Assembly: GCF_000373925.1 (NCBI RefSeq)
Contig: NZ_KB892740.1
Location: 1-64,000 of the forward strand
Direction of reading: 5' to 3'
Source of the DNA: Actinopolymorpha alba DSM 45243
GTDB taxonomy: Bacteria; Actinomycetota; Actinomycetes; Propionibacteriales; Actinopolymorphaceae
DNA length: 64,000 nt
Positions 8,631-15,803 of this stretch are shown here, piece by piece; position 1 is the stretch's first letter, and each line of letters opens with the position of its first letter. Below the pieces are notes generated by a model. The model saw only the letters and a program-made list of their open reading frames with translations, was not told the origin of the DNA and searched no databases. Position numbers and translations under genes: made by a program.

Positions 8631-9188
8631 CTAGAAGGTGAAGTCCTCTGGCGCGCCCTCACCCACGCGACCATCCACTGCCTCACGCAGGATGTCCGCG
8701 TGACCCGTGTGTCGTGCGTACTCCTCAATCATGTCCAGGAGCATGGCGCGGACAGTGGGCGTGCGGCCGCCCGGCCAGGAAAAGGACGCCGGTCCGTCGA
8801 GCCCGCGCTCCTCGATAACCTCGGCCACTACCTTGCGCGACCGCTCGACAGCTTCTCGCCACAGCGCGTAGACATTTTCCGGCGAGTCCAGCTTTCCCGT
8901 ACGCCATTCCCAGTCGGGGTCGGCGTCGAAATCGACTGCGCCCCACGGAGCGCCGTACTCCTGACCGGCGAGCTTGACGGCCAGCCAGTCTGCCTCGACC
9001 AGGGCCACATGCTTGACCAGACCACCGAGTGTCATCGAACTGGCGGCCGTGGTCGCGCGCAGACCCTTCTCGTCGAGCCCCGACGTCTTCCAGGCGAAGG
9101 TCCGCCGGTTGCGCTCGAGGACTGACAGCAGGGACTCAGCCTCGGTGCGCACCGCCGACGGGGAAGGCTGTGGAGCAGTTTCACTCAT
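8631..9188 (-). CDS. DinB/DUF664-type putative thiol transferase
   Basis: About 185 residues from ATG 9188 (MSETAPQ); an upstream extension to 9263 is possible but unlike the family. The sequence has the four-helix-bundle layout of DinB-like proteins with the metal-binding His residues in VKHVALVEADW and in EYARHTGHADILRE. In actinomycetes this superfamily includes mycothiol-dependent enzymes, often of detoxification. Substrate and thiol are inferred only from family. It lies downstream of the SDR-like gene in the opposite order of transcription (both minus, 192 bases apart). Confidence 0.8.
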   Translation of the reverse strand: MSETAPQPSPSAVRTEAESLLSVLERNRRTFAWKTSGLDEKGLRATTAASSMTLGGLVKHVALVEADWLAVKLAGQEYGAPWGAVDFDADPDWEWRTGKLDSPENVYALWREAVERSRKVVAEVIEERGLDGPASFSWPGGRTPTVRAMLLDMIEEYARHTGHADILREAVDGRVGEGAPEDFTF

Positions 9189-9288
9189 GGCCGGAGCATA
9201 GCCAGCTACTTGAACGATCAAGGAAGATGGCCAGGCGAGTGTCAGTTGATCTCGCGTTCCCACACAGGTGACGCGCTCGGCCGACGGT

Positions 9289-10515: not shown

Positions 10516-10562
10516 CGGATCTCCTTCGTGGCGGGTTGTTGCATCCACAGTCGCCGACGGAC

Positions 10563-10601
10563 CTGACATACGACTGACACGGCTCTGACACCGACTGACC
10601 T
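10563..10601. promoter_or_regulatory. Phased SARP-type operator upstream of the P450
   Basis: Heptamers CTGACAT (10563), CTGACAC (10574), CTGACAC (10585) and CTGACCT (10595) are spaced 11, 11 and 10 bases, one helical turn each. SARP regulators bind direct heptamer repeats with 11-bp phasing. The same heptamer in the same orientation relative to the gene recurs upstream of the ABC exporter at 15608-15648. The divergent SARP gene starts at 10729. Confidence 0.65.
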
Positions 10602-10728
10602 GCGGTGGCCGCGGCAGGCCTGGCCGCCATGATCCACAAGACACGCCCACGGGGCCATTGCTTCAGCAACCTTCTGCGCCGCGTCAGCAGTCGGAGTCCT
10701 GCCCATCGCCCATGGCAAAATCAGCCGG

Positions 10729-13700
10729 GTGCAGATCGGGATGCTTGGACCATTCGAGGTTCGTACGGACGACGGCGTCCTAGCCGACGTGCCGGGCGCC
10801 CGGCTGCGCGCACTGTTGATCGCCCTCGCGCTCGAACCAGGTCGCGCAGTCCCGAAGGCGACGCTCGTCGACTGGATTTGGGGTGAACACCCGCCCTCCG
10901 ACGCAGCGAATGCCTTGCAACGCTTGGTTTCCCGGCTGCGGAAGGCACTGCCGGAAGGGTTGGTCGAAGGGCAGACGGACGGCTACCGGTTGAGGGTGGA
11001 ACCCGACGCTGTCGACGCCGTGCGGTTCGAACGCCTCGTCGCCCACGCCCGAAATGACGAGGATCCACAGGGAGTACGGCGGCTGCGCGAGGGCCTCGCG
11101 TTGTGGCGCGGCGCGGCCATGCAGGACGTCGGTTTGCCCGATAGCGCAGCGTTTGACGCGGCGGTCACCCGGCTCGAAGGGCTACGCCTGACAGCCATGG
11201 AGGACCGGTTCGATGCGGAGATCAGCCTCGGCCACGGTGCGGAGCTGGTCACGGAACTGACCGACTTGGTGGCCGCGCACCCGGTGCGAGAACGCCTTGT
11301 CGCCGCGTTGATGCGCGCCCTCGTCGCGACCGGTCGCGACACCGAGGCGCTGCTCGCGTACGAGCGCACCAGGGAAACCCTGGCCGACGAGCTGGGCGTC
11401 GACCCCTCATCGGAGCTGTCCGCACTGCACGTCGCGCTGCTGCGGGGCGAGTTGGGACGGCGGGAGGAAAACCGCAAGACCAACTTGCGTGCCGAGCTGA
11501 CCAGCTACGTCGGCAAGGACGCTGATGTCGCCGCGGTCCGCGACCTCATCGCCGAACACCGGCTCACCACCCTGATCGGACCGGGCGGCTCGGGGAAGAC
11601 CCGGCTGGCCACGGAAACCGCGCGCACCCTGCTCGGCGACCTGCCGGACGGGGTCTGGGTGGTCGAACTCGCGGCCATCGGCGCTGATGGTGACGTGGCA
11701 CAAGCAACGCTCGACGCGCTCAGGCTGCGGGATCCGCTGCTCGGCGAGGCACCGGACGCGGAGCCGACGGATCGGGTCATCGCCGCGGTCCGCGAGCGGG
11801 CGATGTTGCTGATTCTGGACAACTGCGAGCACGTGATCGAGTCCGCGGCGACCTTCGCCCATCGCGTGCTCGGAGAGTGCCGGCGGCTGCGGATCCTCGC
11901 GACGAGCAGGGAACCCCTCGGCATCACCGGTGAGGCACTGTGGCCGGTCGCGCCGTTGGTCCTACCAGCAGAGGAGGCCGGCCCCGCCGAGATCGAGTCC
12001 GCTCCGGCCATCCGGCTGCTGCAGGACCGAGCCGGCGCGGTGCGCAAGGACCTCGCGGCCGACGCCACCACGTTGTCGGCGATGGCGCGCCTGTGCCGGG
12101 CGGTGGACGGGATGCCACTGGCAATCGAACTCGCCGCGGCCAGGCTGCGCACGATGACCCTCGATCAGCTTGCCGACCGGCTCGACGATCGGTTCCGCCT
12201 GCTGACCGGTGGCAGCCGCACCGCGCTGCCGCGGCACCGGACGCTGCGTGCGGTGATCGACTGGAGCTGGGAACTCCTCACCGACGGCGAGCGGATGGTG
12301 CTGTGCAGGCTCTCGGTGTTCTCCGGTGGTGCGAGCATGGAAGCGGCCGAGTGGGTCTGCGCAGACACGGGGGGCGGGCCCACAGGGGATGGGCCCGAAG
12401 GGCAGGGGAGCGGGAAGAACACGCCGGTCGAGGCGGGTGAGGTGCTCGAGTTACTGACCGCGCTGACCGAGAAGTCGCTGGTGGTCACCGAGGGCGACCG
12501 GGCGCCGCGCTACCGGATGCTCGGCACGATCAAGGAGTACGCCCAGCAGCGTCTCGCGGAGGCGGGGGAATCGGATCTCGCGCGCCGTGCGCATCTCGCG
12601 TACTTCACCGAACTCGCCGAAACCGCGGAGCCGCAGCTTCGCCGTGCCGACCAAGTGGAATGGCTTGCCACGCTCGGGGCCGAGCACGACAACCTCGGCG
12701 CGGCGATGCGCGGCGCGCTCGCGGCCGGCGATGCGCCGGCGGCGATGCGGCTCGCGGCGGGCGCCGGGTGGTACTGGTGGCTCGCCGGGCACAAGACCGA
12801 AGGCTTGGAGCTGATCACCGCGGCCACGGAAATGCCCGGCGAGGTGACCGATGAGGTCCGGGCCACGGTGTACGCCCTCATCGTGCTGTTCGTGACCTCC
12901 GGGCCCGGCGACGAACAGCAGGCGGCGGAGTGGATCCACAAGGCGTACCAGGTCAGCCGTCACCTCGAGGGCGGCCATCCGGGGCTGGGACTCGTCGTCG
13001 CGATGGAACACCTATTGCACGGACCAGACGGGGCCTTGACCGCGTTCGAACCGGCGTTGGACGACGAGGATCCCTGGGTACGCGCCCTGGCCCGGCTGCA
13101 ACTCGGCAAGATGCGGGTCATCTTCGGTCAAGGCGGGCGGGACGCCGACGAGTATCTCGAGACGGCGCTCACCGAGTTCGAGGCGATCGGTGAACGCTTC
13201 GGGATCTCCTTCGCGCTCACCGAGCTGGCCGAGCTCATCGCCATGCACGGTGAGCTCGCTCGCGCGTGCGAGCACTACGAAGAGGCGATCGCGGCCGTCA
13301 CCGAGATCAATGCCGTCGACGATGTCATCCGGATGCGGGCGCGACAGGCTCAGCTGTACTGGCTGCTGGGCGACAAGGAGTCCAGTGCGGCCGCCATCGG
13401 CGAGGCCCAACGGCGTGCGGAAGGGGTCGCCTGGCCGGGCACGCTGGCCGTGCTGGCTCTCTCGAAGGCGGAACTCGCCCGCTGGGGCGGCGACGCCGAG
13501 GAGGCGTACCAGCAACTCGACGTCCTCAGGACCGTGCTGGGCGACGAAGCGGAGCGGCCGAACATCCGCGCAACGACACACGACCTTCTGGGCTACCTCG
13601 CCAGCGATCTCGACGAGGCCCGCGAGCACCGCGCGGCGGCCTGCGAGGCGGCGGCCGAGGCGGGGCACGCGATCACGATCGCGCAGGTGCTCATCGGGGT

Positions 13701-13920
13701 CGCGGACCTGGCGCTGCGCCGCGACCAGTACGAGCAGGCCGCGCGGCTGCTCGCGGCGAGCACCAGCGTGCGCGACCTGCCGGATCGTTCCCAACTGGAT
13801 GCGGCCCGGATCGAGCGGGCCACGCGGCATCGCCTCGGTGACACGCGGTTCACCGAGGCGACGCAGGAGGGGGCGCAGGCGAGCTGGCGCGAGCTGGTCG
13901 CGGTCACGCTCGCTTCTTGA
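10729..13920 (+). CDS. AfsR/SARP-family regulator with BTAD, NB-ARC and TPR-like domains
   Basis: A 1063-residue regulator. Residues 1-90 form an OmpR-like winged helix (MLGPFEVR start, VSRLRKAL recognition helix). About 95-240 is the bacterial transcriptional activator domain. The NTPase P-loop GPGGSGKTR is at 284-292, with LLILDNCEHV and ATSREPLGI as Walker B and sensor regions of an NB-ARC ATPase. About 600-1060 is a helical repeat region, probably TPR. GTG 10729 lies at the usual SARP N-terminus. It overlaps the ABC permease by 17 bases tail to tail. It probably activates the P450 and ABC genes through CTGACAC repeats. Confidence 0.9.
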   Translation: MQIGMLGPFEVRTDDGVLADVPGARLRALLIALALEPGRAVPKATLVDWIWGEHPPSDAANALQRLVSRLRKALPEGLVEGQTDGYRLRVEPDAVDAVRFERLVAHARNDEDPQGVRRLREGLALWRGAAMQDVGLPDSAAFDAAVTRLEGLRLTAMEDRFDAEISLGHGAELVTELTDLVAAHPVRERLVAALMRALVATGRDTEALLAYERTRETLADELGVDPSSELSALHVALLRGELGRREENRKTNLRAELTSYVGKDADVAAVRDLIAEHRLTTLIGPGGSGKTRLATETARTLLGDLPDGVWVVELAAIGADGDVAQATLDALRLRDPLLGEAPDAEPTDRVIAAVRERAMLLILDNCEHVIESAATFAHRVLGECRRLRILATSREPLGITGEALWPVAPLVLPAEEAGPAEIESAPAIRLLQDRAGAVRKDLAADATTLSAMARLCRAVDGMPLAIELAAARLRTMTLDQLADRLDDRFRLLTGGSRTALPRHRTLRAVIDWSWELLTDGERMVLCRLSVFSGGASMEAAEWVCADTGGGPTGDGPEGQGSGKNTPVEAGEVLELLTALTEKSLVVTEGDRAPRYRMLGTIKEYAQQRLAEAGESDLARRAHLAYFTELAETAEPQLRRADQVEWLATLGAEHDNLGAAMRGALAAGDAPAAMRLAAGAGWYWWLAGHKTEGLELITAATEMPGEVTDEVRATVYALIVLFVTSGPGDEQQAAEWIHKAYQVSRHLEGGHPGLGLVVAMEHLLHGPDGALTAFEPALDDEDPWVRALARLQLGKMRVIFGQGGRDADEYLETALTEFEAIGERFGISFALTELAELIAMHGELARACEHYEEAIAAVTEINAVDDVIRMRARQAQLYWLLGDKESSAAAIGEAQRRAEGVAWPGTLAVLALSKAELARWGGDAEEAYQQLDVLRTVLGDEAERPNIRATTHDLLGYLASDLDEAREHRAAACEAAAEAGHAITIAQVLIGVADLALRRDQYEQAARLLAASTSVRDLPDRSQLDAARIERATRHRLGDTRFTEATQEGAQASWRELVAVTLAS

Positions 13921-14647
13921 ATGTAGAGGACGCCCACAGGTACCCGACGAGAGCGATCCCGACGCACCAGGCGAGCGCGGTGATCAGGTCGCTGGTGTCC
14001 GGCGCGCCGTTGAGCAGCCCGCGCAGGGTTTCGATGATCGGCGTGAAGGGCTGGTACTCCGCGAACTGCCGGAGGCCCGGACCCATCTTCTCCGCCGGCA
14101 CGATCGCGCTGCTGAAGAACGGAAGCATGACCAGCGGCACGGAGGCCATGCCCGCCGATTCCGGGGATTTCGCCGCCAATCCCAAGGCGATCGTGAGCCA
14201 GCCGGCCGCGAGACCGAGCAGCACGACGAGGCCGACCACGCCGAGCCAGTCGAGGAAACTCGCCGACGGACTGAATCCCAGTAGGAAGGCCACTCCGATG
14301 ATCGCCGCGATGGCGATCAGATTGGTCAGCAGACTGGCAATGACGTGACCGTTCAAGACGGCGCTGCGAGAGACGTCCATGACCTTGAACCGGTTGATGA
14401 TGCCCTTGGTCATGTCGGAGTTCACCGTCGTCGCTACGGACCCCAGCCCGTAACAGACCGCCAACAGCATGAGTCCCGGCGTCGCGTAGTCGACGTAGTC
14501 GACACCGACGTTGAAAGCGTCTCCGAGCATGTACACGAACATCAACATGACCACGACCGGCATCAGGACCGCGTTGAACACCGTGATCGGATTCCGGGCG
14601 ATGTGTTTGAAGTTGCGGCGCAACATCACGATCGAATGGGACTTCAT
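13904..14647 (-). CDS. ABC-2 type permease (DrrB-like)
   Basis: A 247-residue membrane protein with about six hydrophobic helices, of the ABC-2 family (drug/daunorubicin exporter permeases). The ABC-2 signature region PFFSSAIVPAEKMGPGLR and the C-terminal QPFTPIIETLRGLL are conserved in DrrB-like proteins. The ATG overlaps the stop of the ATPase gene by four bases (ATGA), so the two are translationally coupled. The C-terminus converges on the SARP gene with a 17-base overlap. Probable partner of the ATPase in exporting a hydrophobic compound or lipid; the substrate is unknown. Confidence 0.88.
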   Translation of the reverse strand: MKSHSIVMLRRNFKHIARNPITVFNAVLMPVVVMLMFVYMLGDAFNVGVDYVDYATPGLMLLAVCYGLGSVATTVNSDMTKGIINRFKVMDVSRSAVLNGHVIASLLTNLIAIAAIIGVAFLLGFSPSASFLDWLGVVGLVVLLGLAAGWLTIALGLAAKSPESAGMASVPLVMLPFFSSAIVPAEKMGPGLRQFAEYQPFTPIIETLRGLLNGAPDTSDLITALAWCVGIALVGYLWASSTFKKRA

Positions 14648-15585
14648 TTCGCGACCACCTCCGTGGTGTGGCCCGTGAGGGCGAGGAAAACGTCATCGAG
14701 GTCCGGCGTGTGCACGGTGAAGCCTTCGGCGTGGAGCGAGTACTCGTCGAGCCTGTCCAGCAGAGCCCGCAACGACTTCGTGCCGCCATCGCTGGGAACC
14801 CGCAGGGCCAGTGCCTCGTCGTCCCGCGTCGAGTCGGGGAAGATCCGCGCGGCCGCGTCGAGTTCGGCGACGGTGGTGAACCGGAGCCTGACGTGCGTCC
14901 CGGGCATCTGGCGTTTGAGCTCGTCGGGAGTGCCCTGGGCGACCAGGCGGCCCTGATCGAGTACCGCGAGCTGGTCGGCGAGCTGGTCGGCTTCGTCGAG
15001 GTACTGGGTGGTGAGGAAGATGGTCACACCGTCGGCCACCAAATCGCGGATGATCGACCACATCGTGCGACGGCTGCGCGGGTCCAGACCCGTCGTCGGC
15101 TCGTCCAGGAAGATGATCCGCGGGTTGCCGACCAGCGTCATCGCCAGGTCGAGCTTCCGGCGCATGCCTCCGGAGTAGGTCGACGCGGACTTCCGCGCCG
15201 ACTCCACCAGATCGAAGCGCTCCAGCAGATCGGTGACGATCCGCCTGCCGTTGTTGGAGGCGCCTCGGTTCAGATCCACCATCAGCTGCAGGTTCTCCTG
15301 CCCCGTCAGCAGCTCGTCCACCGCCGCGAACTGACCGGTGACACCGATCGCCGCGCGCACCGCCTTGGCCTCGGTCGCGACGTCATGCCCGGCAACGCGC
15401 ACCGTCCCACCATCGGCCTTCAACAACGTGGTCAGCACGTTCACCGTCGTGGTCTTGCCGGCCCCGTTCGGGCCGAGCAGGGAGAAAACCGTGCCCGCGC
15501 GAACATCCAGATCGATGCAGTCGAGCACGATCTTGTCCTTGTAGGCCTTTCGCAGTCCTGAGACCGCAATCGCTGAACTTGTCAT
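14644..15585 (-). CDS. ABC transporter ATPase (DrrA-like)
   Basis: About 313 residues from ATG 15585. Walker A GPNGAGKTT is at 38-46, the Q-loop near VTGQF, signature YSGGMRRKLDLA, Walker B IIFLDEPTTGLD, and a C-terminal extension with HAEGFTVHTPDLDDVFL found in DrrA-type drug exporters. No Shine-Dalgarno is visible before ATG 15585, and a repeat operator ends 23 bases upstream, so the mRNA may be nearly leaderless. Coupled to the permease by ATGA. Likely SARP-activated together with the P450 and DUF4097 genes. Confidence 0.9.
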   Translation of the reverse strand: MTSSAIAVSGLRKAYKDKIVLDCIDLDVRAGTVFSLLGPNGAGKTTTVNVLTTLLKADGGTVRVAGHDVATEAKAVRAAIGVTGQFAAVDELLTGQENLQLMVDLNRGASNNGRRIVTDLLERFDLVESARKSASTYSGGMRRKLDLAMTLVGNPRIIFLDEPTTGLDPRSRRTMWSIIRDLVADGVTIFLTTQYLDEADQLADQLAVLDQGRLVAQGTPDELKRQMPGTHVRLRFTTVAELDAAARIFPDSTRDDEALALRVPSDGGTKSLRALLDRLDEYSLHAEGFTVHTPDLDDVFLALTGHTTEVVAK

Positions 15586-15607
15586 GCGACCACTGTCATC
15601 GGCCGGC

Positions 15608-15681
15608 CTGTCACCCACCTGACACGCGCCTGACACGACCACTGACACGGCCATGTCAGCACGATGACTGACCGGTGTCAG
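15608..15681. promoter_or_regulatory. Divergent phased-repeat operator between the ABC exporter and DUF4097 gene
   Basis: CTGTCAC (15608), CTGACAC (15619), CTGACAC (15630) and CTGACAC (15642) are spaced 11, 11 and 12 bases and face the exporter. ATGTCAG (15653) and GTGTCAG (15675), two turns apart, are the same heptamer pointing toward the DUF4097 gene. The heptamer matches the P450 operator. A SARP binding both ways would co-activate both transcripts; this is inference from pattern. Confidence 0.65.
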
Positions 15682-15803
15682 GCCGGCGGGCGATCGTGGT
15701 TGTCGTGATCAGCTCATCGAACGGGTGGTTGGTCACGACATCGACATCGACCACGCGTCCTCACCAGCGGAGACGCCAGAAAGACCTTCAGGAGAGCACC
15801 GTC

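Follow-up and report, generated by a model that had tools for sequence, protein, structure and literature searches.

A large SARP-family regulator encoded in the 64,000-nucleotide stretch of Actinopolymorpha alba DSM 45243 analysed here (contig NZ_KB892740.1, positions 1 to 64,000, referred to as the window) is very probably an AfsR-type activator of a cytochrome P450 gene, of the drrAB exporter genes and of a gene for a DUF4097 protein, acting through direct repeats of the heptamer GTGTCAG. The SARP gene sits between the P450 gene and the DrrAB-type exporter genes. This reading is drawn from the sequence, namely from the homology of the SARP, the repeats and their spacing, their conservation, their co-occurrence with the SARP and further sites elsewhere. 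By analogy with AfsR, the SARP would bind the repeats, contact the sigma factor, activate transcription and be gated by ATP.

On the forward strand the repeats before the P450 and exporter genes have the form CTGACAC, which is GTGTCAG when read in the direction of the downstream genes, and those before the DUF4097 gene lie in the opposite sense (Table 1). The heptamers follow each other in steps of 11–12 bp and a hexamer GAnnGT, absent from the first-pass annotation, stands exactly N10 after every one of the three arrays. Counted without regard to phase, CTGACAC was not in excess in the window (9 copies against 9.9 expected), and the case for the repeats therefore depends on their phasing. The phased pair RTGWCAG-N4-RTGWCAG, with at most 1 mismatch, was found six times against 0.18 expected and none of 100 shuffled sequences reached six. 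All six fall at these arrays, and the phased repeats claimed in the first-pass annotation are therefore real. The four copies that it placed before the exporter were recovered, as were three of its four before the P450; the fourth has 2 mismatches to GTGTCAG, lies 10 bp off and is absent from the consensus of 37 P450 promoters. The inverted copies that it described two turns apart before the DUF4097 gene are present, but a degenerate third copy stands between them, so this site is also phased at 11 bp. When the hexamer was included (RTGWCAG-N4-RTGWCAG-N10-GAnnGT, at most 1 mismatch), three sites were found in the genome of the window (127 contigs, 96% complete), all at the locus. At 2 mismatches there were four more matches, one of them overlapping the drrAB array, and the reversed control gave one.

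Taking GAnnGT as the -10 box (-12 to -7), the heptamers occupy -29 to -23, -40 to -34 and -51 to -45, and drrA promoters have a further heptamer at -63 to -57 after a 12-bp step. In the definition of PMC10936776, the direct repeats of a SARP-dependent promoter are spaced by 11 or 22 bp and keep a fixed distance to the -10 element; the repeats at the locus are arranged in this way. Within the promoter of afsS, the repeats for AfsR lie at -40 to -30 and -29 to -19 with CACTGT as the -10 element, and R92 and T88 of AfsR contact bases at -38 and -36 (PMC10936776). The likeness to the AfsR/afsS system covers the order of the SARP domains, 11-bp direct repeats at -40 to -19, a weak -10 hexamer and the TCA of the repeat, which coincides on alignment with that of the AfsR repeat CGTT(T/C)ATCGNN (review, PMC10972967). 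The AfsR recognition-helix residues S91, R92 and R94 are kept in 101, 100 and 101 of 101 SARP orthologs. The system differs in its heptamer (GTGTCAG rather than CGTT(T/C)ATCG), in having R where AfsR has T88, in having three or four repeats rather than two, in its targets and in the predicted leaderless DrrA message. For the last, the first ATG or GTG follows the hexamer after 6 nt in 42 of 75 drrA promoters and after 7 nt in 20, which puts the DrrA start codon at the predicted +1, and a leaderless mRNA is therefore predicted. For the P450 gene of the window a 25-nt leader is predicted, with GGAG before the ATG. An in-frame GTG beside the predicted +1 of the DUF4097 gene would yield a longer form of that protein.

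In the SARP itself, Pfam reported PF00486 at residues 27–76 and PF03704 at 95–238, i.e. an OmpR-type winged helix followed by a BTAD domain, and the closest solved relative is AfsR (E 1e-34). A match to AAA_22 reached 26.3 bits, just under the Pfam cut-off of 27, though the P-loop GPGGSGKT is readable in the sequence; the Pfam scan reported no TPR family. The score against the NCBIfam AfsR equivalog NF053617 was 163.8 bits with a cut-off of 1430, so the protein is not AfsR. The ATPase scored 310.1 bits against TIGR01188 (drrA), about 2 bits short of the cut-off of 312.45, and is called DrrA-like.

The first-pass annotation had staked its proposal beforehand on conservation of the repeats near orthologous loci. 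Scanning named genomes yielded 80 SARP ortholog loci, four of them repeats of loci already in the set, and the orthologs are 64–83% identical over the best segment. A site with at most 1 mismatch was found at 70 of the 80 loci and one with at most 2 at 76, and reversed sequences gave 0/80 at 1 mismatch or fewer. The site is represented in 24 of 26 genus-level groups, across which heptamers and hexamer are constant and the spacers differ. The SARP gene is mostly convergent with drrB-drrA. The P450 and DUF4097 genes shift place and strand among loci and, as judged by eye, the orientation of the operator follows the gene when it has moved or been inverted. An operator with at most 2 mismatches lies within 300 bases upstream of 75/83 DrrA, 37/41 P450 and 10/32 DUF4097 matches, and the reversed pattern at the same stringency was found in none of these zones (0/83, 0/41 and 0/32). 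Matches were counted from at least 60% identity for DrrA and P450 and at least 28% for DUF4097; duplicate loci L035, L040, L042 and L045 and paralog loci L058–L061 were excluded from these, from the ortholog recognition-helix and from the DUF4097 counts.

The remaining four P450 genes have a 1-mismatch site further upstream, before a frame that by eye is ferredoxin-like, and the DrrA gene of L103 lies behind a P450 gene that carries the operator. Fifteen of the 32 DUF4097 genes follow drrB in the same orientation and so need no operator of their own; none has one. Before the other 17 an operator was found at up to 2 mismatches in 10 cases and at 3–4 mismatches in five. With a 1-mismatch site in the window and sites in other genomes, the earlier suggestion that DUF4097 is a target gains support. 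Locus L047 (genome G009) has no operator within 1500 bases, its DrrA match starts inside the gene and its SARP match is short at its end; given the missing operator and the shortened DrrA match, this is probably a decayed locus.

The SARP and the operator also occur together across genomes. Among 57 genomes of the order, the own genome included, the SARP was present in 25 at 66–79% identity (own copy apart), and a site was found in 21 of these 25 against 1 of the 32 without it (Fisher p 1.2e-10), with two matches in total for the reversed control. In Streptomyces, the genus of L093, an ortholog at E ≤ 1e-250 was found in 5 of 121 genomes; all five have a site, adjoining the SARP, compared with 18 of the 116 others (p 1.7e-4). 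In a set of other named ortholog genomes, which corresponds to 45 of the 80 named loci and shares two of the five Streptomyces genomes, 42 of 45 had a site and the reversed control none. Together with the AfsR-box spacing to the -10 hexamer, these associations support the SARP-controlled regulon proposed in the first-pass annotation, in which the SARP would bind the repeats. Two of the sites in genomes without the ortholog lie upstream of P450 genes. In G134 a 0-mismatch site at about 9001–9034 of L303 lies ~150 bases before a gene for a P450 42% identical to that of the window; no similar SARP was found within about 9 kb, and a different SARP lies ~30 kb away (L304). In G217 a 0-mismatch site at about 10001–10034 of L305 lies ~1.8 kb before a P450 gene.

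Further evidence came from the recognition helix. Where AfsR has T88, 95 of 101 orthologs have R. Paralogous SARPs (n = 22, 43–51% identical in this domain) possess a similar helix, with S at this place in 21 of 22; the last helix position, K72, also differs in most paralogs. The paralogous SARP often lies near another DrrAB, whose promoter has GTGCCAG repeats in similar geometry. Base 4 of the heptamer in ortholog drrA promoters is T in 112, A in 42, G in 8 and C in 0 cases (T/A 154/162); the pattern that picked these sites favours T or A at this base, for which it gives no penalty. In 13 paralog promoters it is C in 22, A in 3 and T in 1 (C 22/26), and the two consensus sequences agree at the other six positions. 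The paralog heptamers, aligned on CAG, came from 13 of 20 loci; three without DrrA were out and L293, L298, L299 and L301 were left out by hand as having no clear hexamer or repeat. The paralog loci (L188–L190, L284–L298) thus share the geometry, the DrrA target and the helix bar one base-contacting position, and differ in the heptamer and in a leader with a ribosome-binding site, seen by eye. The three paralog loci checked for P450 and DUF4097 (L188–L190) matched neither. In Nocardia, loci L123, L129, L131, L132 and L141 have A for R in the helix and a drrA promoter with GTATCAG and without GTGACAG. A strict link between A at helix position 65 and GTATCAG was dropped, as GTATCAG is also present at sites of other Nocardia.

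Beyond the locus, 64 hand-chosen sites were classed, 52 from the scan of the 45 genomes (about 7 of them at or near SARP loci) and 12 from loci of the order genomes. Fifty precede seven recurrent families: a ~134-aa protein (13), alpha/beta-hydrolase (11), DUF4097 (10), P450 (6), GtrA-like (4), serine hydrolase (4) and DrrA (2, one also matching DUF4097). These classes are post hoc because the reference proteins were taken from the same matches. One further site lies before another SARP gene and 13 are unclassed, including two before genes that by eye are MMPL-type transporter-like; a few of the 64, mostly those with 1 mismatch, look like chance occurrences. The alpha/beta-hydrolase was found in 10 of 57 relatives, all ten with the SARP, and has repeats in front in seven of the ten (five at up to 1 mismatch, two weaker by eye); a search at E ≤ 1e-60 found none in the genome of the window. 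The ~134-aa protein has no Pfam or NCBIfam match. It recurs behind the operator, e.g. at L237:159-560 (+), and at L236:169-1764 (-) it is fused, as the N-terminal part, to a beta-lactamase-fold serine hydrolase. GtrA-like genes behind an operator copy (L239:1351-1794 (-), L245:1306-1794 (-), L232 and L249) look as if promoter and first codons had been copied. Their opening codons resemble the drrA start, with 4/4 pairs above 1000 shuffles; the alpha/beta-hydrolase shows no such likeness (0/3 pairs above shuffles). The idea that DUF4097 or serine hydrolase genes had acquired promoter and leader from P450 genes in this way was dropped, with 1/5 pairs above all 1000 shuffles.

Several observations weigh against control by this SARP. 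The order-level co-occurrence follows phylogeny in part. Four of the 80 named loci have no site at 2 mismatches and two of the 17 DUF4097 genes not behind drrB show no operator. The 18 Streptomyces sites in genomes without the ortholog, four of which share one identical sequence, are not mere chance since the reversed control gave 0/121, so that proteins besides this SARP may recognise the word. One of these 18 genomes (G125, locus L307) has drrAB with a DrrA 79% identical and a 0-mismatch operator and no SARP ortholog at E ≤ 1e-250. The covariation of residue and base is a single contrast between two clades and no proof of a contact, and five SARPs with A at the helix position keep T at base 4 (15/15). 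Finally, a single table row of PMC10933834 lists the TetR regulator SAV151 with palindromes built of CTGACA/GTGTCAG.

Another regulator, SARP-type or unrelated such as a TetR protein, might read the repeats, with the SARP a mere neighbour. The Streptomyces sites, the L303 site before a P450 gene and the CTGACAC and GTGTCAG words in the SAV151 sites (PMC10933834) would fit this. We nevertheless consider it unlikely given the strong co-occurrence with the SARP in three genome sets and the different heptamer beside the paralogous SARP, and the TetR-family sites are palindromes whereas those here are 11-bp direct repeats of SARP-type geometry at a fixed distance from the -10 hexamer. The SARP might instead bind the repeats chiefly as a repressor lifted by a ligand, as the C-terminal domains of large SARPs can be restraining (AfsR, PMC10936776) and a negative regulatory function is mentioned for Atr32 (review, PMC10972967). 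The replacement of the -35 box by repeats at an AfsR-like distance and the poor -10 hexamer, as at activator-dependent promoters, make this very improbable. That the repeats are non-functional products of slippage or of mobile-element spread is scarcely credible: slippage can create short direct repeats, but no result here favours it, and both the constancy of heptamers and hexamer amid varying spacers and the low reversed controls (2 in the 57 order genomes, 0 in the 45) speak against it.

Activation by the SARP would then proceed as follows. Its DNA-binding domains would occupy neighbouring GTGTCAG repeats, which follow each other at one helical turn. The proximal pair (-40 to -34 and -29 to -23) would replace the -35 box and hold sigma region 4, so that transcription could start from the poor GAnnGT box, and the one or two heptamers further upstream would take additional protomers. 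The P-loop NTPase and C-terminal region may gate the SARP in response to a signal, and the output, a P450, the DrrAB exporter and DUF4097, would serve modification, export and perhaps protection of the envelope.

The SARP boxes of ActII-ORF4 and DnrI are of a TCGAG-type heptamer. TCGAG-type boxes are likewise phased direct repeats overlapping the -35 position, in three copies in several cases (PMC10972967), but have another heptamer and belong to SARPs of antibiotic clusters. The operators of the SARP-LAL regulators PimR, SanG and PolR also have heptamers in two or three copies, with 4-bp spacers in the main PimR operator; they differ in the heptamer CGGCAAG, in serving polyene or nucleoside antibiotic clusters and, for PimR, in not overlapping a -35 box (PMC5930380). 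The lunaemycin cluster, with DUF4097, DrrAB and a 285-aa SARP, is a biosynthetic cluster and was rejected as an instance of this system (PMC9866976). No paper linking GTGTCAG/CTGACAC to a SARP was found in the literature searched, most subscription journals being beyond reach. The new SARP specificity suggested in the first-pass annotation is to that extent partly supported, and qualified by the TCA shared with the AfsR repeat. The mechanism would be a known SARP one; the operator type and the target set were not found in that literature.

Table 1. Features of the SARP locus in the window. Functions of promoter elements are predictions.
Feature	Position	Strand	Remarks
Cytochrome P450, 408 aa	9289..10515	-	predicted target; CYP105AS1 entries are the best sequence matches in the PDB
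GACTGT, P450 promoter -10-like hexamer	10547..10552	-	N10 from last heptamer; predicted +1 10540; conserved in 37 P450 promoters; putative function
P450 operator, three GTGTCAG-type heptamers	10563..10591	-	conserved; forward strand CTGACAT 10563-10569, CTGACAC 10574-10580 and 10585-10591
AGGTCAG, fourth P450 copy of first-pass annotation	10595..10601	-	2 mismatches, not conserved; forward strand weak CTGACCT
Large SARP, 1063 aa	10729..13920	+	OmpR-type DNA-binding domain, BTAD, predicted P-loop NTPase, C-terminal region
SARP recognition helix NALQRLVSRLRK	residues 61-72 of SARP		
ABC-2 permease, DrrB-like	13904..14647	-	end overlaps SARP gene end
ABC ATPase, DrrA-like	14644..15585	-	ATG at predicted +1; predicted leaderless
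GACAGT, drrAB promoter -10-like hexamer	15592..15597	-	putative function
drrAB operator, GTGTCAG N5 GTGTCAG N4 GTGTCAG N4 GTGACAG	15608..15648	-	forward strand CTGTCAC 15608-15614, CTGACAC 15619-15625, 15630-15636 and 15642-15648
DUF4097 operator, ATGTCAG N4 ATGACTG N4 GTGTCAG	15653..15681	+	1 mismatch; ATGTCAG 15653-15659, degenerate ATGACTG 15664-15670, GTGTCAG 15675-15681
GATCGT, DUF4097 promoter -10-like hexamer	15692..15697	+	predicted +1 15704; putative function
DUF4097 (toastrack) protein, 279 aa	15804..16643	+	

Ten flanking reading frames scanned with Pfam include gyrase A and B type proteins, a mycothiol transferase, a histidine kinase and an asparagine-synthase-domain protein, among others; no polyketide synthase or non-ribosomal peptide synthetase was found among the ten. 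The mycothiol-S-transferase gene (8631-9263, - strand) adjoins the P450 gene and is another detoxification-type gene; no operator site is listed before it. Chemical defence is suggested by the set of P450, exporter, hydrolases and DUF4097, by the gyrase-type genes close to it and by the lack of such biosynthetic genes among the ten frames, and the SARP looks like the regulator of a resistance regulon.

A joint reading, to which we give as much credence as doubt, is that of a widespread actinobacterial chemical-defence regulon under an NTPase-type sensor SARP outside antibiotic clusters. Its targets would be P450s, ABC and other exporters, alpha/beta- and beta-lactamase-fold hydrolases, DUF4097 proteins and the ~134-aa family; GTGTCAG would replace the -35 box, the DrrA mRNA would be leaderless, GtrA-like genes would have been recruited by copying the drrA promoter and first codons, and one helix position would set GTGTCAG against GTGCCAG.

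SARPs are familiar as switches for the pathways of antibiotic clusters. In this case a member of the family seems to govern a resistance or detoxification regulon that is conserved across many genera, and its operator is sufficiently precise for members to be found by pattern in unannotated genomes. The two natural SARP/operator pairs, differing at one base-contacting helix position and one base, offer a direct test of SARP specificity, and the system is a candidate sensor-promoter part. As P450, exporter and families of unknown function appear tied to one signal, its inducer would explain all of them together.

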